Below are positions 760 to 13,499 of a stretch of DNA of 64,000 nucleotides, in pieces. Source of the DNA: Acidimicrobiales bacterium. GTDB taxonomy: Bacteria > Actinomycetota > Acidimicrobiia > Acidimicrobiales > Palsa-688. The translations under genes were made by a program, and so were the position numbers. The notes beneath the pieces are model-generated. The model was not told where the DNA came from. It worked only from the letters and a program-made list of their open reading frames with translations, and ran no database searches. How positions within the stretch are numbered: position 1 is the stretch's first letter; each line of letters begins with the position of its first letter. The stretch is from contig DASUWA010000027.1 in assembly GCA_036378675.1 (NCBI GenBank), positions 1-64,000 on the forward strand. The letters are read 5' to 3'.

Positions 760-1662
760 ATGAGCGCGAAATGGACCCGTCATGACGTGCCAGGCCAGCA
801 GGGACGGCTGGCCGTGGTCACCGGCGGAAACACCGGCCTGGGGTTCGAGACCGCCCAAGTACTCGCCTGGCGAGGCGCGTCGGTGGTCTTGGCCGTGCGG
901 GACATCGAGAAGGGCAAGCGAGCCGCCGCCCGCATCGCCGACACCGCACCCGGCTCGGACGTCATGGTTCAGCCTCTCGACCTGACCTCCCTGGATTCGA
1001 TACGCGCCGCCGCAGACGAGCTGCAGGCCCACCACCCCAGGATCGACGTGCTGATCAACAACGCCGGGGTCATGTTCACGCCGAAGCGGACGACGCGGGA
1101 CGGCTTCGAGCTGCAGTTCGGAACCAACCACCTGGGGCACTTCGCCCTGACCGGACTGCTGCTCGAGTCGATGCTGCCGGTGCCGGGCTCCCGCGTGGTG
1201 ACGGTCTCCAGCGCCGCGCATCGCATTCGCGGCCGGATCAACTTCGACGATCTCCAGGGCCAACGCTCGTACAGCCGGGTGGCCGCCTACAGCCAGTCGA
1301 AGCTGGCGAACCTGATGTTTACCTACGAGTTGCAGCGCCGGCTGTCCGGCCCGGGCACCACCATCGCGGTCGCCGCCCACCCAGGCCTGGCCGCAACCGA
1401 GCTCACGCGCAACTCGCCCGCGATCGCAGCGTTCTTCGCGCAGGCGATCAGCCAGAAGGCAGCCATCGGCGCACTGCCGATTCTGCGCGCTGCGACCGAC
1501 CCCGGTGTGCTCGGCGGCCAGTACTACGGCCCACGCGGACTATTCGGCGCGAGGGGCTACCCCAAACTGGCCAAGTCCAACAAGAAATCTCACGACCCAG
1601 CCATCCAGCGCCGTCTGTGGACAGTCTCCGAAGAGCTGACCGGAGTCACGTTCCCGGTCTGA
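760..1662 (+). CDS. Short-chain dehydrogenase/reductase, retinol-dehydrogenase/WWOX-like
   Basis: 300 residues of the classical SDR fold, an NAD(P)-dependent oxidoreductase. The Rossmann motif TGGNTGLG lies at about residues 22-29, NNAGVM at about 101-106, and the catalytic YSQSK with an upstream Ser (VTVSSAAH) follows. The long C-terminal part resembles the retinol dehydrogenase / WWOX-like branch often annotated as oxidoreductase in actinobacteria. The ATG at 760 is preceded by GGAGGA at 751, a good ribosome-binding site. It is divergent from the TetR gene, so it is the likely target of that repressor. The substrate cannot be read from sequence. Confidence 0.88.
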   Translation: MSAKWTRHDVPGQQGRLAVVTGGNTGLGFETAQVLAWRGASVVLAVRDIEKGKRAAARIADTAPGSDVMVQPLDLTSLDSIRAAADELQAHHPRIDVLINNAGVMFTPKRTTRDGFELQFGTNHLGHFALTGLLLESMLPVPGSRVVTVSSAAHRIRGRINFDDLQGQRSYSRVAAYSQSKLANLMFTYELQRRLSGPGTTIAVAAHPGLAATELTRNSPAIAAFFAQAISQKAAIGALPILRAATDPGVLGGQYYGPRGLFGARGYPKLAKSNKKSHDPAIQRRLWTVSEELTGVTFPV

Positions 1663-1729
1663 CCCGGCCCGGCACGCAGCCTCCCTGCGTCGTACCACTG
1701 GCTCGCCGTCGGTCGCGAATGCGGTCTCC

Positions 1730-3205
1730 TCAGGCAGCTTGGGTCTCGCGGACTTCGACGACCGTGTCTGGCCCGGTTTCCCCCATCCGGCGAAGGAGCG
1801 AGGTGGCCACGCCTATCGACGCCGCTACCACCGACACGATAATTGCTGTCTTGAAGCCGTGGAGGAGGGTGGTGGAGGTATGACCGCCCTTGCTGGCTGC
1901 GTTGTTGACCGCGGTGACGATGGCGAGGACTAGCGCTCCCCCGAACTGGAACGACGTGTTCAAGAGACCACCGGCGAGGCCCTGTTCGTGTGGGGCTATA
2001 CCGTTCGTGGCGGCCATGTTGAGTGGCCCGTAGGCGAGACCGAATCCGAGTCCGGCGAGGAGGAACGTGGGCAGCATGGCGGCCGCGTAGCTCGAACCGT
2101 GGCCGATCGGCAAGAACAGCGAGTAGGCGGTGACGGTGGAAGCCAGCCCGACGATGATGAGGCGGGGGATACCGAAGCGCTCGATCAGCAGTTGCAACCT
2201 CGGCGCGAGCACCGCGACGATCACGCCTGCCGGGAAGATGGACAGTCCGGCGTGCAGCGGAGACCAACCTCGGAGTTGCTGCATGTACAACATGGCAATG
2301 AACTGGAACCCGATCCACCCGCCGAACAAGGCCATCGCAGCGAAGTTGGCGCGGACGAGGGAGGAGGATCGAAGGATGCCTAGGCGTACCAAAGGCGCCT
2401 CGACGCGCTGCTCGTGCAAGACGAACCCCAGCAGTATCGCGATGGCCCCAGCGAACGAACCGACGGTACGACCGGTTGCCCATCCGACCTGGGGCGCTTC
2501 AACGACGGTGAACACGAGCAGCAGGACGGCGGTAGTAAGAGCGACCGCGCCGCTTACGTCGAACTTCTGGGTCAGGTTGGCCTTGCCTTCGGTGTTGGGC
2601 ACGAACTTGACCGCACCGAGCAGGGTTATCGCGGCGACCGCGACCGGCACGAAGAAGACGTACCGCCAGCCGGCGGTCGAGAGTGCGCCGCCGAACACCA
2701 GACCGACAGAGAAGCCAGTCGCGCCGGTGGCGGTATAGACCGAGAGCGCCCGGTTACGGGCCGACCCCTCCGGAAAGGTCGTGGTGATGATCGATAGACC
2801 CGCTGGTGCTGTGAAGGCAGCGCTGATCCCCTTGACGAACCGGGTGGCGATCAGCATTCCTCCGGTGGTGGCGAGTCCGCCGAGACCGGATGCCACAAGG
2901 AAAACCCCGAGCGATACGAGGAACATTCGTCGTCGGCCCAGCAGGTCCGCCGCACGACCGCCGAGGAGAAGAAAGCCGCCGTAGCCGAGGACGTACGCGC
3001 TCACCACCCACTGGAGCGAACTGGTTGACATGTGCAGATCGGTGCGAATTGACGGCAACGCCACGCCGACCATCGATACGTCTAGAGCATCTAGGAACAA
3101 GGCGCCGCACAGGACCAAGAGCGAGGCCCAGGCGCTCCGTGAAAGTTGATTTGGCCCTTCGGCGCTGGCTTGGACTTGGTTCGCGGGCGCGACTGAAGAA
3201 GACAT
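1730..3205 (-). CDS. MFS drug exporter, DHA2 (EmrB/QacA) type
   Basis: 491 residues with many hydrophobic segments spread along the protein, consistent with the 14-helix DHA2 family of proton-driven drug exporters. Helix 1 carries FLDALDVSMVGVALPSI, matching the acidic D1 motif of the family. The loop after helix 2 has GGRAADLLGRRR, the MFS motif A, and helix 5 has the G-rich antiporter motif C region (ATGATGFSVGLVFGGAL). The start is an ATG with AGGAG about 10 nt upstream. It is divergent from the ArsR-type regulator at 3312, suggesting efflux induced by a compound sensed by that regulator. The substrate is unknown. Confidence 0.88.
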   Translation of the reverse strand: MSSSVAPANQVQASAEGPNQLSRSAWASLLVLCGALFLDALDVSMVGVALPSIRTDLHMSTSSLQWVVSAYVLGYGGFLLLGGRAADLLGRRRMFLVSLGVFLVASGLGGLATTGGMLIATRFVKGISAAFTAPAGLSIITTTFPEGSARNRALSVYTATGATGFSVGLVFGGALSTAGWRYVFFVPVAVAAITLLGAVKFVPNTEGKANLTQKFDVSGAVALTTAVLLLVFTVVEAPQVGWATGRTVGSFAGAIAILLGFVLHEQRVEAPLVRLGILRSSSLVRANFAAMALFGGWIGFQFIAMLYMQQLRGWSPLHAGLSIFPAGVIVAVLAPRLQLLIERFGIPRLIIVGLASTVTAYSLFLPIGHGSSYAAAMLPTFLLAGLGFGLAYGPLNMAATNGIAPHEQGLAGGLLNTSFQFGGALVLAIVTAVNNAASKGGHTSTTLLHGFKTAIIVSVVAASIGVATSLLRRMGETGPDTVVEVRETQAA

Positions 3206-3244
3206 CGCAGGTTGCTCCTCTGAGGGGGATTGTTTCTAGGAAAA

Positions 3245-3271
3245 GGTTGCAACCGCCTTTAGTTCGGCGGT
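3245..3271. promoter_or_regulatory. Inverted repeats in the MFS/ArsR divergent promoter region
   Basis: A perfect 10-bp palindrome GGTTGCAACC (3245-3254) overlaps the start of a second inverted repeat, ACCGCC (3252-3257) and GGCGGT (3266-3271). Both lie in the 106-bp gap between the divergent exporter and ArsR genes, the expected place for an ArsR operator. Assigned by position and symmetry only. Confidence 0.4.
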
Positions 3272-3311
3272 GGTGTATGTTTGATGAGCACCGTACAAGG
3301 ATGTTCGATCT

Positions 3312-3614
3312 ATGTCAAACAAGAAATCCAAGGACGAGACGAGCGTGCTTACGGTCCTGCAAGCGCTTTCGGATCCGGTCCGTTTAGACATCGTCAGACA
3401 ACTCGCAGGATGTTCGGACGACTGCGGGATGACGTGCGGGAGCATCGAGATTCCCGTCACCAAGGCGACGGGAACCCACCACTTCAAGGTTCTCCTGGCG
3501 GCGGGGATCACGACCGAGCGAGAGGAGGGGAACCGCAAGTACATCCGGCTAAGGAGGGAGGAATTGAACGATCGGTTTCCCGGGTTGATCGACTTGGTGT
3601 TGAACAGCGAGTAG
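3312..3614 (+). CDS. ArsR-type winged-helix transcriptional regulator
   Basis: 100 residues, the normal size for this family. LQALSDPVRLDIVRQLAG is the typical ArsR first helix pair; residues about 48-70 (IPVTKATGTHHFKVLLAAGITT) form the recognition helix and the start of the wing, with the wing itself at about 71-80. Three cysteines occur in SDDCGMTCG (plus an earlier C) before the recognition helix. They might bind metal or sense redox, but the canonical ELCVCDL arsenic site is absent. It is divergent from the DHA2 exporter, so it most likely represses that gene. There is no downstream partner on the same strand. Confidence 0.82.
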   Translation: MSNKKSKDETSVLTVLQALSDPVRLDIVRQLAGCSDDCGMTCGSIEIPVTKATGTHHFKVLLAAGITTEREEGNRKYIRLRREELNDRFPGLIDLVLNSE

Positions 3615-3753
3615 CTGGCCAGCTAGCCATCAGCGGTTAGCTCCGCCCTCCCCTGATCACCGCCGCCGGGCCGCTGGAAGCCTCGGGTGGGCGAATCGCG
3701 ATTCGACAGCCGTACACAATCACCCGGCCTCGGGCGATAGCACGTTCGATTGA

Positions 3754-4656
3754 TCAGCGGCTCAGGGCGAGGTCGTCGGAGGTTTCGTCGGGAGTGGTGG
3801 GGTGCGTGTCGTGTGGGTCTCCGGCGACCATGGCAGCGAGCAGGGAGAGGGCTTGGGCGCTCGGGCTGCCTGGCGCGACGTGGTAGAGGGTCAGTGTCTG
3901 GTGGTCGGTGTCGGGGATCGGCAGTTTTTGGAAGCTCAGCTCCATCGGGCCGATCAGGGGATGGTCGATGGCAACAGTGCCGCTGCGTTTGGGTCGGGCG
4001 TCGTGCCGCGCCCACAGCTGGCGGAAGCGCTCGCTTCGCACCGAGAGTTCTCCGACCAGTTCGTTGAGCCCGGGATCGTCCATGTCGGGCCCGACCTGGG
4101 CGCGCAGATGGGCGACGGCGGCCTGGGTGAGCCACTCCCAGTCTTGGTGAAGATCGCGCACGTGGGGGTCGAGGAACACGGCGCGGACGAGGTTGGTGCC
4201 CACAGCAAAGAAGTGCGGGAAAAGTGCAATGGCGAGAGGGTTGGCGACGAGCACGTCCGTGTAGCGGTTCTCGACGGCGGCGGGAGTGTCTGTCCAGGAT
4301 TCGATCAGCTGCACGATGCCCGCGGGCACTTTCTCCGGTCGCTGATTTCGACGGCGCCTGGGGCGCGGGCGGCTGGCCAGGCGGTGGAGGTGGGCGGTGG
4401 CGTCGTCGTCGAGCTGCAGGGCCCGTGCGAGCGCGTCGAGAACCTGCGGGGAGGGATGCTGGTCGCGTCCCTGTTCGAGGCGGATGTAGTAGTCGGTGCT
4501 CACGCCGGCCAGCAACGCTACCTCCCCCCGTCGCAGCCCGGGCACCCGGCGACGGCCCTCGACAGCGGGCAGGCCGACGTCCTTCGGGCGGACCAGCTGA
4601 CGACGAGCCCGAAGGTATTCGCCGATCAGGTTCTCACCTGCCACGCCAAAGACCAT
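3754..4656 (-). CDS. XRE-family regulator with MmyB-like ligand-binding domain
   Basis: The N-terminus has an XRE helix-turn-helix (RRVPGLRRGEVALLAGVSTDYYIRLEQGRD). It is followed by a domain with the features of the MmyB-like family: NRYTDVLVANPLA, then a WEWLT..AVAHLRA segment and FQKLPIPDTDHQTLTLYH near the end. I start at the ATG 4654-4656 (MVFGVAGENLIGEYLRARR) because family members begin a few residues before the helix-turn-helix. An in-frame ATG at 4738-4740 would add 28 Pro/Arg-rich residues that look non-native. Such regulators usually control a neighbouring dehydrogenase or exporter gene. The nearest genes here are the ArsR gene and the nitrilase-like gene, so the target is unclear. 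Confidence 0.85.
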   Translation of the reverse strand: MVFGVAGENLIGEYLRARRQLVRPKDVGLPAVEGRRRVPGLRRGEVALLAGVSTDYYIRLEQGRDQHPSPQVLDALARALQLDDDATAHLHRLASRPRPRRRRNQRPEKVPAGIVQLIESWTDTPAAVENRYTDVLVANPLAIALFPHFFAVGTNLVRAVFLDPHVRDLHQDWEWLTQAAVAHLRAQVGPDMDDPGLNELVGELSVRSERFRQLWARHDARPKRSGTVAIDHPLIGPMELSFQKLPIPDTDHQTLTLYHVAPGSPSAQALSLLAAMVAGDPHDTHPTTPDETSDDLALSR

Positions 4657-4860
4657 ACGCCGAGCAGGCGGTGGGGAACATGGCCCTGCCGCTACCAGCC
4701 TCGACGGGTCTCTTGTGGGTGCGGGTCCCCGGCCGCACACTCGCCGCGTGACCGTCAGGAAGGTGCCACGTCCTCAAGACGTCGCGCCTGGGCCGTGTCG
4801 GTTCGAGGACCATCGGCCACGTTCGCCGAGCTTGATCCACACCATTGGTGGAGGTGAAAG

Positions 4861-7014
4861 GTGGGGAGCACCGATATGGACGGCAACCCGTCCGCCCAGG
4901 CAGCCCTCGTTCGGGAGATGAACGGGAAGCTCGAGGCCGGCAGCGCAACCGGACCGCCTGTCCGCAAGTTGTATGAGGACATGAGCGAGCCGACGCTGGG
5001 AACGATTTGGCACGCCGCCAGCGCGACCCCGATCACGGACCGACTTCTGGAGTGGCCCCCTGATGTCTTCGCGCTGACAAATGTGGTGCTGACGCGAGCG
5101 GAAGCGTTCCGCTACGCCCTCTCCGTTGAGGACTGGCCCCCCAGCGGGTTTGGCGAGTGGGCTGAGGCGGTCGAGGAGGCTGGCCGCCGATGGAGTGCCT
5201 GGGCCGAGGACCGGAGCGGCGCCCTGCCCGACCTGGTCGCCGCAGCGTGGAAGGTCTTTTGTGAGGGCGCCGACGTGTCGCTCGAGCAGCTGGCCACCCG
5301 GCGAGAGCACCGACTTCGTGAGGCGCTGTTGACGCTGCACGCCATCGCCGACGAGGCCTGCATCGGGCTGGGCGTGGCGCTGGACAGCTCCCACGCCGAT
5401 GGGTGCGTGTATCGGGCCCGCGGCCGCGAGCTGCTGGCCCGCACCGGGTCGCTCGCCCGCATCGACGCCCGCGTCCTGCGCGTCCTGCCCAAGGTCATCA
5501 CTCCGCCCACGGGACGGCTGGCGTTTTCCCGCTACGTCTGCGTTCAAGGCCCCGGCATCGACGCCCACTGGCACAAGATCCCGGCGCGCCATCGGGGTAC
5601 CGACCTGCGCTCCGAGTACGCCACCTTGCTGTTGCTGCCGTGGCCGCTACGAGTGCAAGCATCCGACTTTCACCCGGTCGGCGATGTGCGGCGGCGGGCC
5701 AAGGACCCATATGGATTCTTCGAGTTCGCCCCCGCCGAAGGGCTCGACCTTGACCTGTTGGATCGGGTGCTGGTCGCTGCCCGCCAAGAGGCGGGCAGCG
5801 TCGACGTCGTCCTGCTGCCAGAGAGCGCCGTCGGCGAAGACGACATCGACGACGTCGAAACCCTGCTGGACCGCCACGGGGTGGTCAATCTGATAGCCGG
5901 GGTGCGCCAGACCACGCCACACTCGGGCCAGTTCCCCAACAATTGGCTGCACATGGGGTTCAACCCCAGACTCGAGAAGGGCGGGCGGGTGCCCAGCGAA
6001 GGACATCAACCGTGGTTTCACATACGCCAGAACAAACACCACCGCTGGTCGCTGGACGAAGACCAGGTGGAGCAGTACCACCTGGGCGGTGCCCTGCACC
6101 CCCACATCCGCTGGTGGGAAGCCATGGACGTACCCCGGAAGGAAATCCAGTTCGTCGAAGTAGCCGAACTGGTGCTGACCACGCTGGTGTGCGAGGACCT
6201 GGCCCACAACGACGAAATCGCGCAGCTCATCCGGTCGGTCGGCCCCACGTTGGTCATGAATATGCTGCTGGACGGGCCGCAGCTCCCCTCCCGCTGGACG
6301 GCCCGATACGCGAGCGTCCTGGCCGACGATCCCGGCTCGGCTGTCCTGACCCTGACCTCCTATGGGATGGTCGAGCGCTCCCGACCCGTCGGCCGAGACG
6401 CCTCTCGGGTCATCGCGCTATGGAAGGACCCCACCCGTGGCGTCCGCGAGATTCCGCTCGAGCCGGGCGCTCAGGGCGTTCTGCTAACCATCTGCATGGA
6501 CCGCGCCACCCGCTACAGCGCCGACGGTCGGTGGCCAATCGACAACAGCACCTCCTGCTACGGCGTGGCCGTCCGCCAAGTCCACGCCGCCAACAACGAC
6601 CCAGGCCCTGGAACACAACGCTCAGCGTCTACCGCCGCTAGCCAGCCGGTGCTGGAACTCGATGAGCTCACCATCCTCACTGCCTGGGCCGAGGGCGTAT
6701 CGGAAGCGGCGGCCTACGCACCCGAGGGCATCGACCGGCTGCTGGCCGCCGCGGGCCCGGGGTCGACATGGCGAGCCGAGCTGCGCCTTCCGGAACCGGC
6801 CCCCTCACTCGCCGCCGCCATCGAATCGCTCGGCCGAGTGGTTCGAGCCGCCCCGCTACCAGCTGGCGCGACGACATTCGACGCCTTGCTCAGCGCAGCC
6901 ACCTCGGATCACGCCGGCGCGACAACCCTAGACGCGGTGGCCCGACGGGCCTTGCTCTCCATGCTCGAAGAACGGCGCACCAGGCAACCCACCCAAGCCA
7001 GTGTCTCCCGCTGA
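4861..7014 (+). CDS. Large protein with nitrilase-like (C-N hydrolase) core and unknown N-terminal domain
   Basis: 717 residues. Residues about 300-560 show the order of conserved elements of the nitrilase superfamily: LLPESA with Glu321, QNKHHRW with Lys392, and TLVCEDLAH with Cys444 as candidate nucleophile. After these come NMLLDGPQ and VLTLTSYGMVERS, like the strands after the nucleophile. The Lys-Cys spacing is longer than in ordinary nitrilases. Residues 1-290 and the C-terminal 130 match nothing I recognise and show no reverse-transcriptase motif. The GTG start is well supported: GGAGGTGA at 4850-4857 lies 6 nt upstream. The gene stands alone, with an oppositely oriented regulator upstream and a convergent ACT gene downstream. 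Nitrilase domains of this kind are known as fusions to some defence-associated reverse transcriptases; a role here is unknown. Confidence 0.75.
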   Translation: MGSTDMDGNPSAQAALVREMNGKLEAGSATGPPVRKLYEDMSEPTLGTIWHAASATPITDRLLEWPPDVFALTNVVLTRAEAFRYALSVEDWPPSGFGEWAEAVEEAGRRWSAWAEDRSGALPDLVAAAWKVFCEGADVSLEQLATRREHRLREALLTLHAIADEACIGLGVALDSSHADGCVYRARGRELLARTGSLARIDARVLRVLPKVITPPTGRLAFSRYVCVQGPGIDAHWHKIPARHRGTDLRSEYATLLLLPWPLRVQASDFHPVGDVRRRAKDPYGFFEFAPAEGLDLDLLDRVLVAARQEAGSVDVVLLPESAVGEDDIDDVETLLDRHGVVNLIAGVRQTTPHSGQFPNNWLHMGFNPRLEKGGRVPSEGHQPWFHIRQNKHHRWSLDEDQVEQYHLGGALHPHIRWWEAMDVPRKEIQFVEVAELVLTTLVCEDLAHNDEIAQLIRSVGPTLVMNMLLDGPQLPSRWTARYASVLADDPGSAVLTLTSYGMVERSRPVGRDASRVIALWKDPTRGVREIPLEPGAQGVLLTICMDRATRYSADGRWPIDNSTSCYGVAVRQVHAANNDPGPGTQRSASTAASQPVLELDELTILTAWAEGVSEAAAYAPEGIDRLLAAAGPGSTWRAELRLPEPAPSLAAAIESLGRVVRAAPLPAGATTFDALLSAATSDHAGATTLDAVARRALLSMLEERRTRQPTQASVSR

Positions 7015-7040
7015 GAACTCGCTCGGACGCTCATGTCCGG

Positions 7041-7643
7041 TCACTCCACGCCTGTTACGTTCATGCACTCCCACAGGCGTATGACAGCGTCGACTCGGGC
7101 TTTCTCGGTGACGGTGAAGTCCATGGTCGCCGGGCGCCGGCCCATAAGGGCGTCGGCTGATCCGGGGATCGGGACGACCAACTGCGGTCCGACATCGCTC
7201 TCGGCGAAGCCGGGGTCGTTGTCGGGGTCGTCGGGCGTCTGCTCGACAACCGACCATTCAGTGGCCGGGCACACTGCGGCGAGGCTGTCGATCAACTCGA
7301 GACCGGCTTCGCCTGCCTGGACCGAGACATTTCCGGTGTCGGTCCTGGTTCTGGCCCCGCGCTCGAGGGCGTCCAGCACCGCGGTTACCACGTCCACCGA
7401 TTGGGCCGGCTCCATCTGGACGATGGTCGCCGCCGCCGTCATCGACAGGTCGGTGCCGAGATCATCGTGGGACGGCTCGGTCTGAAACTCGACGACAAAA
7501 TCGTCAACCGCCGACGCGCCGTCGGTGCTGTGAACGTCGACTGAAAGGATGTTCCCGCCGTGCAGACCGATGACGGTCGCTACCTGGCCGAGAGCGCCCG
7601 CCCGGTCGGCGAGGCAAAGCCGGATACGCACGACGGAATTCAC
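7041..7643 (-). CDS. ACT-domain protein
   Basis: The first 70 residues form an ACT ligand-binding domain (VVRIRLCLADRAGALGQVATVIGLHGGNILSVDVH). The rest (about 130 residues) is acidic and of unknown fold, with a VVTAVLDALERGARTR segment. I placed the start at the GTG 7641-7643, just before the ACT strand; no clear Shine-Dalgarno is visible. An ATG at 7817 would add 58 Arg/Gly-rich residues that do not look like a domain. ACT domains bind amino acids or other small molecules. The divergent neighbour at 8.0 kb also ends in two ACT domains, so the two may sense related ligands or interact. Confidence 0.7.
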   Translation of the reverse strand: MNSVVRIRLCLADRAGALGQVATVIGLHGGNILSVDVHSTDGASAVDDFVVEFQTEPSHDDLGTDLSMTAAATIVQMEPAQSVDVVTAVLDALERGARTRTDTGNVSVQAGEAGLELIDSLAAVCPATEWSVVEQTPDDPDNDPGFAESDVGPQLVVPIPGSADALMGRRPATMDFTVTEKARVDAVIRLWECMNVTGVE

Positions 7644-7652
7644 CGGCCGGAC

Positions 7653-8016
7653 GGTACACGGCGTCCGCGGCCGGGGACCGAAATGGCGGCCAACATTCAC
7701 ACAAGCGCAATAGTTCCGTCGGCCGAACGAAATATTGACGTGGCCGCCGCATGCCGGCGGCCATCCGCCGCCCGATATATCGGCCCAAATGCGGCGACGA
7801 CGTGGAGGCGCACGCATTTTCGGTATGAAGCCCCGACGGTGTTCGCGAAACGTTCATGCTCTGGTGACCCTCCGGAGACCGCGTGGCGGTTAGATGGCTT
7901 CGACGCCGACGTCCATCCTTCCCAGGAGACGAGGCGATCGCGCCGGGCGTGGCACCCGGGGTTCCATCCCCCCCGGGCGACCCGGGTGCCCCCGGCGATA
8001 TCTGTAGCTCCACTCC
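7653..8016. other. Intergenic region between two ACT-domain genes, with a strong inverted repeat
   Basis: About 360 nt with no convincing gene; the open frames on both strands here are Arg/Pro/Gly-rich and lack ribosome-binding sites. GGCACCCGGG (7951-7960) and CCCGGGTGCC (7981-7990) are perfect 10-bp inverted arms around a 20-nt C-rich loop, just upstream of the hydrolase-ACT gene. There is no T-run after it, so it is not a typical intrinsic terminator. It could be an operator or a leader hairpin. Confidence 0.5.
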
Positions 8017-9723
8017 TTGCTGGGCCAATGTCCGCATGGTCTGACTCTTCACACTGTCGAAACCAAGCCGTTACAGAACGTGAGGAACGTTTGGTGGGTG
8101 GGTGCGCTTCCGAGTTTCTCCGAGGTCGAGGGCACCGCCACCGACGACCGGCTGAGATGGTTCCAAACGGAGGTGCAAGGTCGACGAGCGGTCGGTGCAG
8201 TAGGAGGACGCCAGGGTCCACCTGTGCTGTTCCTTCACGGGTGGGCGCTCGGCAGCTACACCTACAAGCGGGCGCTCTCCCGCTTAGTGTCGCGTGGATG
8301 CCGGGTGTACGCCCCGGCGTTACCGTCTTTCGGCGGGACTGCCGGACTGCCCAGTTCTGAAACGACCCTCGATGGATACGCAGGTTGGGTGGCGGAATTC
8401 ATGTGCACGGTCGGAGTCGATGAGCCGGCGATGGTGATCGGTCATTCGTTCGGCGGCGGGGTTGGCATCAAGCTCGCCGCTCAGCACCCAGACCTGGTGT
8501 CATATCTGGTTCTGCTCAACGCGGTCGGCGGCGTGTCGCCCAGACCTCCCTGGGACTGGGTGTCGGGGTTCGCTCGTGAACTGTGGCCTCTCACGTCGAC
8601 AGTGGAGTTGATCGGTGCCGTACGGTCCGACCTCGTTCCTACTCTCACTGGCAACCCTTGCGGCGTCCTTCGAACGGCACTCCTGGCCCAACAAGCCGAC
8701 CTTCGCGAGGAGGCACGGGAGTTGCGCGCCGAGGGGCTTCCAGTTCTGGTGCTCACCAGCCAGGGCGACGCGGTCGTTCCCCGGGCCGCATTTGAAACGT
8801 TGTGCAACGCTATCGGAACCCAGGGGCGGGTGGTCAAGGGCGGGCACACTTGGATGCTCGCCGATCCCGACTCCTTCGCGGCATCCATCGCGCCGGTCTT
8901 GGACGGACTGATCGCTAGCGACCGGAGATCGCGGGCCGCTTCTACGGCGAGCGATCTATCGGTGCTTCTCGCGACCATGCAGATGCCTCGACGACTGGCT
9001 TCGGACCTGGTCCGGAAGGCACCCCCCTTGTGGCTGCTGAGCGATTCCCCGTCGGTCCTGGCGGCCGACTTGGCATTGTGCCATCCGAAACTCCGCCCGC
9101 ATGAAGTCCGGGCGGTCGCCCGTCCCATCGTCGATTCCGACGCCGTGAGGCTGGCCATTCTCACCACCGACAGAAAAGGACTATTGGCCGACAGCGCCGG
9201 AGTCCTCGCTGCCAGCGGTCTCTCCATTCTTCACGCCTCAGCCGCAACCTGGACCAGAAGGAACTTGGCTCTCCACTCGTTCATCATCGATGGAGGCCAA
9301 TCGCTCACAGACGAAAGATGGAACGAACTGGGGCGCCGGCTCCAAGTCATGGCCGCCACCGTTCCACTCCCCGGCGCCAGAACTTCCGCTCCAGAACACG
9401 TCACGTCCCACGGCGGTGGTGGCGACCGACTTCTCGTGACCATAACCGTGCGCGACGAACCCGGAGCGCTATCAAACCTGTGCCGGAAGTTCTCCGATCA
9501 CGGAATCAACATCGAGTCTCTCCACGCCCGGTCCGCTGGCGGCCGGGCAATCGACACCTTCTTGGTGTCGGGGATCAAGGACTCCGCCCAGGTTTCGAAC
9601 ATCTTCGAGGCCGAATCCTGGTCAGCGCCCCGCTCGCCAATCGTTGACCGCCGGGTGAACCAACGGAACTGGGATCCGAACCGTCGCCCGTCGTCCGCGC
9701 GCTTAAAGGTCGTGGTCAGCTAG
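8017..9723 (+). CDS. Alpha/beta-hydrolase fused to two C-terminal ACT domains
   Basis: Up to 568 residues. The N-terminal 300 are an alpha/beta-hydrolase: oxyanion LFLHGWALG, nucleophile elbow GHSFGGG, acid in SQGDAVVP and histidine in GGHTW. Residues about 385-435 (VRLAILTTDRKGLLADSAGVLAASGLSI) and about 475-530 (RLLVTITVRDEPGALSNLCRKFSDHGI) are two ACT domains. Their arrangement recalls the end of GlnD uridylyltransferase, including a preceding helical stretch. I know of no standard family with this architecture. The frame opens with TTG at 8017; GTG at 8098, with GAGGA 11 nt upstream, is a credible alternative start. Its 3' end overlaps the convergent ureD stop by a few bases. Confidence 0.75.
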   Translation: MLGQCPHGLTLHTVETKPLQNVRNVWWVGALPSFSEVEGTATDDRLRWFQTEVQGRRAVGAVGGRQGPPVLFLHGWALGSYTYKRALSRLVSRGCRVYAPALPSFGGTAGLPSSETTLDGYAGWVAEFMCTVGVDEPAMVIGHSFGGGVGIKLAAQHPDLVSYLVLLNAVGGVSPRPPWDWVSGFARELWPLTSTVELIGAVRSDLVPTLTGNPCGVLRTALLAQQADLREEARELRAEGLPVLVLTSQGDAVVPRAAFETLCNAIGTQGRVVKGGHTWMLADPDSFAASIAPVLDGLIASDRRSRAASTASDLSVLLATMQMPRRLASDLVRKAPPLWLLSDSPSVLAADLALCHPKLRPHEVRAVARPIVDSDAVRLAILTTDRKGLLADSAGVLAASGLSILHASAATWTRRNLALHSFIIDGGQSLTDERWNELGRRLQVMAATVPLPGARTSAPEHVTSHGGGGDRLLVTITVRDEPGALSNLCRKFSDHGINIESLHARSAGGRAIDTFLVSGIKDSAQVSNIFEAESWSAPRSPIVDRRVNQRNWDPNRRPSSARLKVVVS

Positions 9724-10465
9724 TAGCACGAACCCGGCAGGCGAGTGACTCGACGGCCTCGCGGCAATCCGATAGCTCCTGGCCCCAAGCAACCACCTGC
9801 ACTCCCTGCGCGGCCAGCGGCAGCGCTAGCGCCCTGGTCGTACCGCGGGATTCCTGAGTCGCCGCGCCGAACTTGCGTAGCGGATCGATGACTACGAGGG
9901 TCGAGATCGCCCGCGCGCCGTCAAGTACCGCACTGCTCCGCCAACCTGGCGCACGAGGACCAGCGGCGGTGTCCGATGACAGGAGCACCGATCCGGCGCC
10001 CGCGATCCGCAGCCTGCTCCGCCAGGTACCGGGCTCCTCACCGTGGCGTCCGATCACGAATTCGTCACGCCACGCAAGGCGGGCACCATCACCCATTCGG
10101 ATGCGGGTATCAGCCACGTGGTCCGAGCCCGCAGCCGCCACGCCAGGCTCCGGGTTCCACATCAGAGTTGCCTCGCGGCCGATTCGAACGTTGATGACCA
10201 TGGCCGAACGCTCGCAACCGGGACCAGGGCCCTTTCTGGCGAGGGTGGCGGACGTGGAACGCACTTCGGCATTGCATCCCGCCGCGACCGTCAAGCGGAC
10301 CGAGAGCCGATCCCCGCCGATCGGGTGCGCACCTGCTCCCACCATCCATACCCCCCACTCTGTCGGGCGGAAGTAGAGCGCCCCCGAGCACCGCAGTTGC
10401 TCGACGATCGGGATCCCCCCATCCCCGCGCCCGAGGCGCAGACTTGCTGCGGAGCATTGGCTCAC
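9716..10465 (-). CDS. ureD: Urease accessory protein UreD
   Basis: About 249 residues with the UreD pattern: an N-terminal [23 protein letters not shown] strand region, then [19 protein letters not shown] and [16 protein letters not shown], close to the family's WxPEPxI..gc.h motif. UreD scaffolds assembly of the UreD-F-G complex that delivers nickel to apo-urease. I chose the GTG at 10463-10465 because it overlaps the ureG stop as GTGA, a coupled junction. An upstream ATG at 10549 would intrude 85 nt into ureG. It is the last gene of the long minus-strand operon and runs tail-to-tail into the hydrolase-ACT gene. Confidence 0.85.
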
Positions 10466-11100
10466 ACCCGGGAGGCTTCGGCCAGGCATTTCTCGACCCA
10501 GTCGTGTACGCGCTCCACTCCTTCGCCTGTGCGCAACGAGATCATGCACACCGGGAGGTCCTTGCGTATGGCCTTGGCGTCGGTCTCCATCACCGAGAGG
10601 TTCGCTCCGACGAGGTCGGCCAGGTCGACCTTGTTGATGACGAGGAGGTCGGACCGGGTGACCCCCGGGCCGCCTTTCCTCGGCACCTTGTCTCCCCCTG
10701 CCACATCGACAACGAACACCTGCTTGTCCACCAGACCCCGTGAAAAGGTTGCGGTGAGGTTGTCACCGCCGCTTTCTACGACGACCATCTGAAGTGTCGG
10801 GAACGCGCGTCTTAGGCAGTCGATGGCATCCAGGTTGGCAGCGATGTCGTCGCGGATCGCGGTGTGAGGGCAGCACCCGGTCTCCACCGCCACGATCCGG
10901 TCGGGCTCCAAGACAGCGGCGCGCTTGAGGAAGTCAGCGTCCTCGGTCGTGTAGATGTCGTTCGTAACCACTCCTAGCTGAACCCGGCTCGAAAATGCTT
11001 TGCAAAGGTTCGCGACGAGGGCGGTCTTACCGCTTCCGACGGGTCCCCCTACGCCTAAGCGGAGAGGGCCCGGCTCAGTCGGTGTGGCGTCACGATGCAA
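10462..11100 (-). CDS. ureG: Urease accessory GTPase UreG
   Basis: 212 residues, the usual length. The P-loop GPVGSGKT is at about 19-26, the nickel-related [15 protein letters not shown] segment follows, and the conserved CPH metal motif lies in [13 protein letters not shown]. The C-terminal part carries NKVDLA, the guanine-specificity motif. UreG hydrolyses GTP to power nickel insertion into urease. It overlaps ureF by 11 nt upstream and ureD by 4 nt downstream, consistent with stoichiometric coupled synthesis of the accessory complex. Confidence 0.95.
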
Positions 11101-11782
11101 ATAGTCGTTCCTTTCTCCCGAAGTGCTCCTCGGCCAGCAGGTCGAGAATCGGCGACGACGGCGAGGGGATCTTCCGCAGCGGTCGCCTGGCGTCTCGCGC
11201 CGCGACTGCCGCCACCGCGTCGACGTCTTCGGCGATCCCCGCGAGGACCTTCCCTGTGCCGGCGGGATCCAGACCGAGCAGCCTCAGGGCAGCTGAAGCG
11301 GGACCGGCTACGGAGGCGTAAGCCGCCGACATCGCCGCTTCGCCAGGAGACAACCCCGCCACGGCGGCGACCACGCCCATCACGACCGCCTGATGGGGGT
11401 CGCTCCCGGTTAGAGCAGCAGCGGCAGCGAGGGACGCCAACGGATCGGCCTCGAAGACACGGTCGGCGGTCCGCAGCAACTGACCCCCCTGTTTTCGCGA
11501 TGCGTACCGCGCTGCCGGGGAGGGCATCCTGGCATCGGATTCCATGTCAGCCACACGCCACAGACGGTCGAGATCGGCGCCATCCTGCACGCCGGCGCAG
11601 ATGCGCGCCGCGATGCAAGCTCCGATGAGGCCCGCTGTAGCGAGCCGTCCTCTCAGGAACCCTTCGAGTTGGGGAAGGTCGTCGATCACACCGTCTTCGC
11701 ATGCCTGCTCCACTCCCCCGGAGTGGGCGTGACCCCCTGCGGGGAAACGGGAATCCGACACCAGCAGCAGCAGCGATCTCAC
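11090..11782 (-). CDS. ureF: Urease accessory protein UreF
   Basis: About 230 residues. The N-terminal [24 protein letters not shown] is the conserved UreF opening (SDSxFPxGxxxHSxGLE), and the C-terminal helices have the family's Ala-rich character. UreF works with UreD and UreG in urease activation. I start at GTG 11780-11782, 7 nt after the ureC stop. The longer frame from 11857 overlaps ureC and encodes an unrelated Arg-rich leader. Confidence 0.9.
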
Positions 11783-11789
11783 GGTCTGC

Positions 11790-13499
11790 CTAGAACAGGA
11801 AGTATCTCTGGGCCATCGGCAGCACAGCCGCGGGTGCCGGTTCGACCATCTCGTCATCGATCGTCACGGCGAACGAGTCGGGTTCGATTTGGATCCGGGG
11901 GAGGTAGTCATTGTTCGGCATGTCCGCCTTGCCGAGCCCGCGGACATCGTCGACCGCCACGACCGCTTTTTTGAGCTCCACCCTTTCGTTGATCCCCTCT
12001 TCGAGGGCGACCGGCGCCACGAAGGCGATGCTGGACCCGGCCGCGGTGTTCGGCGACGCCCCGAACATGGGGCGTGGAAGGACTGGCTGGGGGGTGGGGA
12101 TCGAAGCATTGGCATCGCCCATCGCGGCCCAGGCGATCATCCCTCCCTTCAGCACTAGGTGGGGCCGGACCCCGAAGAAGGCGGGTTCCCACAGGACCAG
12201 GTCGGCGAGCTTGCCCGGCTCCACCGAGCCGATCTGGGAACCCAGGCCGTGCGCGATGGCCGGGGCGATGGTGTACTTCGCAACGTAACGGCGCGCGCGG
12301 TGGTTGTCCGCGACGCTGTCGCCGGAGAGCGTTCCGCGGCGTCCTTTCATCACGTGCGCGGTCTGCCAGGTTCGCGTTATCACCTCGCCGACCCTTCCCA
12401 TCGCCTGCGAATCGGAGCCGATCATCGAAATCGCGCCGAGATCGTGAAGGATGTCCTCGGCTGCCATCGTCGAGCCCCGGATGCGACTTTCGGCAAAGGC
12501 CAGGTCCTCGGGAAGCCTCGGGTTCAGGTGGTGGCACACCATGAGCATGTCCAGGTGCTCGTCGAGGGTGTTGACGGTGTATGGCATCGTCGGGTTGGTG
12601 GACGACGGAAGCACGTTGGGGTGCGACGCCACAACCATGATGTCGGGAGCGTGCCCTCCTCCCGCGCCCTCGGAGTGGTAGGTGTGAATCGAACGCCCAG
12701 CGATCGCAGCGAGCGTGTCCTCCACGAATCCGGCCTCGTTGAGTGTGTCGGTGTGGAGTGCCACCTGGACGCCGGCCTCGTCGGCGACGCCGAGGCAGCA
12801 CTCGATTGCGGCGGGGCTAGATCCCCAGTCCTCGTGGAGCTTGAAGCCGGACACCCCCCCGCACAGCTGTTCCCACAAAGCGTCCGGCGAAACAGTGTTG
12901 CCCTTTCCCAGCAGAGCCACGTTGACCGGATACGGATCGAGGGCTTGCAGCATCCGGGCCGTGTACCACGATCCTGGCGTCACTGTGGTCGCCTTGGTCC
13001 CCTCGGCAGGGCCGCTGCCCCCGCCGATGAGCGTCGTGATCCCCGACCCGATTGCTTCGTCGATGATCTGGGGGCAGATGAAATGCACGTGGCAGTCGAT
13101 GCCGCCGGCGGTGAGGATCAGTCCATTACCGCCGATGACCTCAGTGGACGGCCCGACGACCAAGGCGGGATGGACTCCGGACGTGATGTCAGGGTTGCCG
13201 GCCTTGCCGAGGGCGGTGATTCGCCCGTCTCGCACTCCGACATCAGCCTTGACGATCCCCCAGTGGTCGAGGACCACGGCTCCTGTGATCACCAGGTCGG
13301 GCGTGCCCGAGGCCCGCGTCGCTGCGGATTGTGCCATCGACTCGCGAATCGTCTTGCCGCCGCCGAAGATGGCCTCATCACCGGGTCCGCAGCGGTCCTC
13401 GGTCACCTCCACGAGAACGTCGGTGTCGGCGAGGCGAATCATGTCCCCGGTCGTGGGACCGTATAGGGCCGCGTAACGGTCGCGTCCAATCGAGGTCAA
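11790..13499 (-). CDS. ureC: Urease alpha subunit
   Basis: 569 residues, full length. All active-site features are present: HVH at 137-139, the carbamylated lysine Lys220 in GFKLHEDWG with His222, nickel ligands His249 and His275, and the flap Cys322-His323. This subunit hydrolyses urea to ammonia and carbamate using two Ni(II) ions in the cytoplasm. It overlaps ureB by 4 nt. In this operon its substrate would come from the guanidine-hydrolase-like enzyme encoded upstream at 14957-16093. Confidence 0.98.

Follow-up and report, generated by a model that had tools for sequence, protein, structure and literature searches.

The gene at positions 4861-7014 of the forward strand of the window (the entire 64,000-nucleotide stretch of DNA analyzed here, from a 4.1-Mb draft genome) encodes a solitary 717-aa protein of the nitrilase superfamily in which a predicted Cys-Glu-Lys hydrolase is joined to a helical N-terminal domain. 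No Pfam, NCBIfam or PADLOC profile describes the family to which this protein belongs; its architecture is new among the members of a known enzyme superfamily, and its role there probably is as well. The explanation to which we lean, if only slightly, is that the protein is a single-gene defense enzyme of the abortive-infection type, with the helical front controlling a nitrilase effector that attacks an essential molecule. For the family at large, the chances seem nearly even that it is an antiphage nitrilase family independent of reverse transcriptase (RT), encoded by a single gene that is sometimes lodged in cas operons or prophages, with a new helical domain driving a cell-arresting hydrolase.

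The open reading frame is a genuine coding gene. It begins with GTG, preceded at a distance of 4 nt by a Shine-Dalgarno-like GGAGGTG (4850-4856, forward strand), runs through 717 codons uninterrupted by stops and ends with a stop codon within the range; an alternative ATG start at 4981 (residue 41) may be used. The GC content at codon positions 1, 2 and 3 (0.72, 0.51 and 0.82, respectively) is typical of a high-GC coding gene, and the frame is not a chance one because homologues with 25-60% identity are found in several phyla. On the opposite strand, the frame across 4861-7014 is interrupted by stops, and an antisense open reading frame at 4774-5592 (reverse strand), for which a family search returned nothing, is dismissed as a shadow. 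The flanking genes, assigned to families by eye, encode a divergent XRE-type regulator (3754-4740, reverse strand), MFS, SDR and ACT-domain proteins, and urease; this neighborhood is metabolic, and no defense genes were recognized in the window. An XRE-type regulator is likewise divergent and directly upstream in Kribbella (L010, 8361-9386, reverse strand), with 38% identity to its window counterpart; a functional tie between the regulator and the nitrilase gene is unproven. Farther downstream, a single open reading frame (8017-9723, forward strand), adjoined by an ACT-like gene (7041-7817, reverse strand), appears by eye to be an unusual fusion of an alpha/beta hydrolase with two ACT-like regions.

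The domain anatomy of the protein was derived from an AlphaFold2 model built on 12 homologues (mean pLDDT 71, pTM 0.64) together with conservation among the homologues; all features lie on the forward strand. A variable, unconserved leader with pLDDT below 50, predicted to be disordered (residues 1-41, 4861-4983), is followed by an N-terminal helical bundle with pLDDT of about 60-95 (residues 42-168, 4984-5364) that includes the motifs WPPD.FA and DEAC..LG, then by a variable linker at about residues 170-200, and by a conserved segment, VLPK..TP..G..(RS)LS, immediately ahead of the nitrilase domain (residues 205-240, 5473-5580), in which G218 is invariant and the remaining motif positions are nearly so. 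Residues 206-575 are beta-rich in the model, and within this region, residues 247-575 (5599-6585), mostly with pLDDT of 70-90, are predicted to adopt the alpha-beta-beta-alpha fold of the nitrilases. Structural comparison of the model with nitrilases and amidases in the PDB, using VIA-align, gave Z scores of 15-18 with rmsd of 3.4-5.2 over 221-251 aligned residues, covering approximately 247-573, at sequence identities of only 7-17%; Foldseek retrieved nitrilases, amidases and glutaminase domains of NAD synthetases with E-values down to 8e-8. The C-terminal helical domain (residues 598-708, 6652-6984), recognized from the model (600-708) and from homologue comparison, is present in the actinobacterial clade that includes the window protein; the relatives from proteobacteria, acidobacteria and planctomycetes lack it, and the Deinococcus homologue has a C-terminal extension of another kind.

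The long extensions pointed out in the initial annotation are real, the C-terminal one being a separate helical domain that distant homologues lack. The N-terminal domain, described in that annotation as an unknown region of 290 residues, indeed has no recognized fold but comprises about 245 residues. Folded alone, it is predicted to form a helical bundle, with no convincing match in the PDB (best Foldseek E 0.8; best VIA Z 3.9), an outcome that does not amount to proof of a new fold. This domain is specific to the family and conserved across all its members, and we suppose that the bundle of residues 42-168 is a sensor or assembly domain.

The predicted fold and the catalytic residues are well supported. 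In an alignment of 26 homologues from Actinomycetota, Planctomycetota, Acidobacteriota, Deinococcota and Pseudomonadota, 30 of the 531 core positions are invariant, all of them within the nitrilase domain except for D164 and G218; E321, K392, E420, C444 and D446 are conserved in 26 of 26. The catalytic triad proposed from the letters of the sequence, Glu321, Lys392 and Cys444, thus holds up, being invariant across phyla and embedded in a predicted nitrilase fold with PDB matches; a blind choice of three core positions would hit only invariant ones with a probability of about 2e-4. Glu321 (5821-5823), the predicted general base, sits in a strand-helix junction (316-338) in the model and is aligned to the Glu of the nitrilase of DRT1, one of the defense-associated reverse transcriptases (DRTs). 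Lys392 (6034-6036), the predicted catalytic lysine, comes after the strand 386-391 within the motif Q.KHHRW.LD..Q...Y and, in profile-profile comparison, aligns with RQGKHH of the DRT1 nitrilase. Cys444 (6190-6192), the predicted nucleophile, directly follows the strand 437-443 in the motif (V/I)C(E)DLA. Glu420 (6118-6120), the predicted second structural Glu, is likely the fourth catalytic residue; this role is assigned because it lies 24 residues N-terminal of Cys444, a spacing that matches the one between the second Glu (E142) and the Cys (C166) of aliphatic amidases. E142 is also named in the titles of PDB fold matches. All 26 homologues have the combination of residues expected of the nitrilase superfamily, namely Glu, Lys and Cys in succession together with a second Glu; the predicted activity of such enzymes is hydrolysis or transfer involving a C-N bond. 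The atypical spacing that had been noticed is present as well, and stems mainly from some 20 additional residues in the interval from K392 to E420 (KHHRW.LD..Q...Y.L.....WWE), a signature of the family.

Searches of Pfam, NCBIfam, PHROGs and PDB with the single protein sequence detected no significant family, the matches to asparaginase and DUF7437 being noise; the Pfam CN_hydrolase profile recognized 0 of 20 members, a BFVD search gave no match, and no description of the family was found in the open-access papers searched. The only PADLOC profiles matched were RTasNitrilase, RT_UG5-nitrilase and Drt1a, by 6, 5 and 3 of the 20 members, respectively, with weak scores below the usual thresholds (best E 2e-4). 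In profile comparisons with hhalign, the nitrilase domain of the family aligned to that of DRT1, represented by a profile of three sequences, with E of 6e-6, to stand-alone Azospirillum proteins with E of 7e-16, and to ordinary nitrilase-superfamily proteins, used as single sequences, with E of 0.003-0.07. The link to the DRT nitrilases that was suspected at the outset is, accordingly, weak but consistent.

The family is rare, patchy and scattered across bacteria, a distribution that is well supported. Among related genomes, the gene is present in 2 of 99, with two paralogues (53-54% identity) in 1 of 98; L002 and L003, from a same-family genome labeled Acidimicrobiales (a MAG), match L005 and L007. 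Searches of contigs added further actinobacterial copies at 50-60% identity and relatives at about 33% identity in Planctomycetota and Acidobacteriota, a plasmid search 10 distinct relatives, in Deinococcus, Rhizobiales, Burkholderiales and Vibrio, and an IMG/VR search four loci with relatives; records of cultured phages gave no match. In sampled genomes, where more relatives turned up in Acidobacteriota, Planctomycetota and Actinomycetes, carriers numbered 1 of 296, 3 of 247, 4 of 246 and 3 of 346 in the taxon samples, counts that include the seed genomes and two marginal matches. The phylogenetic tree joins the window protein to Actinomycetospora (support 100/98), not to the two copies of the same-family genome, and in it members from prophages are intermixed, with strong support, with those from plasmids (L016 with L032; L019 with L031), a pattern that would be expected for a horizontally moving accessory gene.

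The gene was initially described as standing alone, and an all-against-all comparison of 27 loci bears this out, having revealed no constant partner; nor was an RT recognized beside the window gene or in any other locus examined (the 27 compared plus L059-L063), as had been stated for the window. Carriage by mobile elements or next to defense genes, counted as raw co-location, is seen in a minority of the members and involves 2 prophages, several plasmid defense neighborhoods and 1 type I-B cas operon. One homologue (L031) is part of a prophage that also encodes an integrase, a terminase, a portal protein, a repressor and a DnaC-like protein; another (L032) comes from a phage contig on which endolysin and tail genes are present. 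On a plasmid stretch (L021), the homologue follows, by about 4 kb, a Pycsar-like cluster of cyclase, E2 and TIR genes (PycTIR, E 5e-92); also in plasmid regions, DpdB-like and PIN genes are close by in L017, and a PifA-like NTPase gene in L016. Several copies are found amid insertion-sequence or recombinase genes (L018-L021, L033). In L059, a homologue of 538 aa (3876-5492, reverse strand) lies 26 bp after a gene read by eye as Cas5-like. Within the stretch 981-11577 of this contig, the type I-B cas operon has the order cas8b-cas7-cas5-nitrilase-small ORF-cas3, with the homologue co-directional, and the contig also carries cas1, cas4 and a CRISPR array (11748-12610, at least 11 repeats, about 37 nt). 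This member is a possible Cas-linked nitrilase effector, but a single instance; the gene was not found in six other genomes of the same order. No clear defense neighbors were found in L014, L015, L023, L060, L061, L063 or the actinobacterial loci, where most copies are surrounded by housekeeping or metabolic genes, some of them near transporters. The defense role raised as a possibility in the initial annotation gains support from homologues in prophages, plasmid defense clusters and a cas operon; the window copy itself has no defense neighbor.

Some of these loci hold further genes worth recording. In the Agrobacterium plasmid L017, a 753-aa protein that weakly matches the GTPase family MMR_HSR1 (5448-7709, forward strand) ends 13 bp before the homologue; it is a possible local partner, absent from other loci. 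Small putative membrane proteins in L018 (9813-10520, forward strand) and L031 (17618-18253, reverse strand) are similar in short segments (best E 8e-4) and are possibly a family of membrane effectors of mobile elements; as a partner of the nitrilase, this protein was rejected, given its distance from the gene in the L031 prophage.

Most enzymes of the nitrilase superfamily are metabolic, and the main rival to a defense function, unlikely but with a modest chance of being correct, is a metabolic enzyme, an amidase or nitrilase that is divergent but otherwise ordinary and carries additional domains, engaged for instance in nitrogen scavenging and spread horizontally. The full conservation of the catalytic residues would fit such an enzyme, as would the urease and transport genes near the window copy and the transporters and metabolic genes near the actinobacterial ones. 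However, the failure of the Pfam CN_hydrolase profile to recognize the family, the lack of a constant metabolic neighbor, the presence of the gene in prophages, in plasmid stretches beside defense genes and in one cas operon, the very patchy distribution, and the conservation in all members of a family-specific N-terminal domain all speak against it. The family can be further set apart from ordinary nitrilase-superfamily enzymes, such as Nit2, aliphatic amidase, formamidase and the glutaminase domain of NAD synthetase: the fold (Z 15-18) and the Cys-Glu-Lys machinery are the same, but the family has extra helical domains at the N- and C-termini, occurs in other contexts and escapes recognition by Pfam.

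Appreciably less probable is that the protein is no effector but produces or erases a signal or a modification, for example, by deamidating or acylating a protein or a nucleotide, in host-element conflict or in regulation. The superfamily does include acyltransferases such as Lnt and protein N-terminal amidases (5n6h and 5k63 are among the fold matches), the helical accessory domains at both ends could bind a partner, and the divergent XRE-type regulator upstream of the gene in both the window and L010 would suit a regulatory function. Against this possibility, neither a partner gene nor a target is consistently found in the vicinity, and the nearest defense profiles are those of the DRT nitrilases, of which the one in DRT1 is an abortive-infection effector (PMC13275509).

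A 2026 structural study calls nitrilases uncommon in antiphage defense and reports that the nitrilase of DRT1 is the effector, with the cysteine C1116 essential for abortive-infection defense, the substrate and the mode of killing being still unknown (PMC13275509). With the RT-nitrilases of DRT1/UG1 and UG5, the window family shares the nitrilase fold and the aligned Glu, Lys (RQ.KHH) and Cys, but it lacks a fused or adjacent RT, its N-terminal domain is another one, some 20 residues are inserted between its Lys and Glu, and its Cys is followed by the motif L(L/M)DGPQ..RW..RYA. The PDB entry of DRT1, 9YFD, did not come up in the searches. Its N-terminal part matches neither the N-terminus of DRT1 nor that of the RT-associated nitrilase; residues 1-262, compared at the level of sequence profiles with the N-terminal 1021 columns of DRT1 (the RT and helical-repeat part), gave an hhalign E of 0.45. 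An RT fused to the nitrilase or located beside it, which defines class 3 DRTs (DRT1/UG1, UG5 and UG6), was found neither in the protein nor in its neighborhood nor in the homologue loci, and it appears that the window protein shares the effector module of the DRTs without their defining RT.

Two other groups of proteins are close to the family. RTasNitrilase (632 aa, in L064) is similarly a separate protein with a long N-terminal part, but it sits beside a UG6-like RT, has an unrelated N-terminus and lacks both the KHH motif and the DGPQ signature; its locus (3114-9528) is a four-gene DRT-like operon encoding a RT_UG6-like protein, RTasNitrilase, HEC-01A (ATPase) and HEC-01B. That some DRT-like systems encode their nitrilase in a gene of its own is the one point in favor of the window protein being a degenerate or accessory component of a DRT-like system of several genes, with the RT elsewhere in the genome, which is very improbable considering that no recognizable RT lies beside the gene in the 27 compared loci and L059-L063, that the N-terminal part is unlike that of the RT-associated nitrilase or DRT1, and that the relatives on prophages and plasmids are each encoded by one complete gene. 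The 502-aa Azospirillum proteins (L024, L025) have a related nitrilase domain, a long N-terminal extension and no RT beside them, but their N-terminus is another one and L024 passes the Pfam CN_hydrolase profile (E 2e-9); judging from sequence comparison, they would represent a second family of stand-alone nitrilases, akin to that of the window. In both loci, the gene is followed by a small one (5254-6762 and 6759-7307 in L024; 5239-6747 and 6744-7280 in L025), and in the small downstream gene of L024, a winged-helix domain was detected.

The best reading of these relationships is that the family works like the DRT nitrilase effector, although it is not a DRT, and the one-gene defense mechanism is proposed because of this analogy with DRT1. 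The helical N-terminal domain, which would fill the place of the RT and helical-repeat part of DRT1, might sense infection or govern oligomeric assembly, keeping the enzyme silent until then; the nitrilase domain, as a Cys-Glu-Lys hydrolase, would cleave a C-N bond (amide or nitrile type) in a molecule that the cell cannot do without, so that growth would stop before a phage or another invader could spread. The single-gene organization and the mobile-element and defense neighborhoods of several homologues are well supported; the defense role of the window copy, the trigger, oligomerization, substrate and toxicity are inferred. Weighing against a defense function are the window copy and most actinobacterial copies without a defense neighbor, defense contexts being a minority, an N-terminal domain without similarity to a known sensor, DRT profile matches that stay below the usual thresholds, and a CRISPR link that consists of one instance.

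If the proposed defense function is correct, nitrilase effectors would be used beyond RT systems, tied to a new sensor or assembly domain, and the DRT nitrilase effector would form but a single branch in a broader collection of immune effectors built on nitrilases. A stand-alone family without an RT would, moreover, offer a simpler protein for finding the nitrilase substrate.
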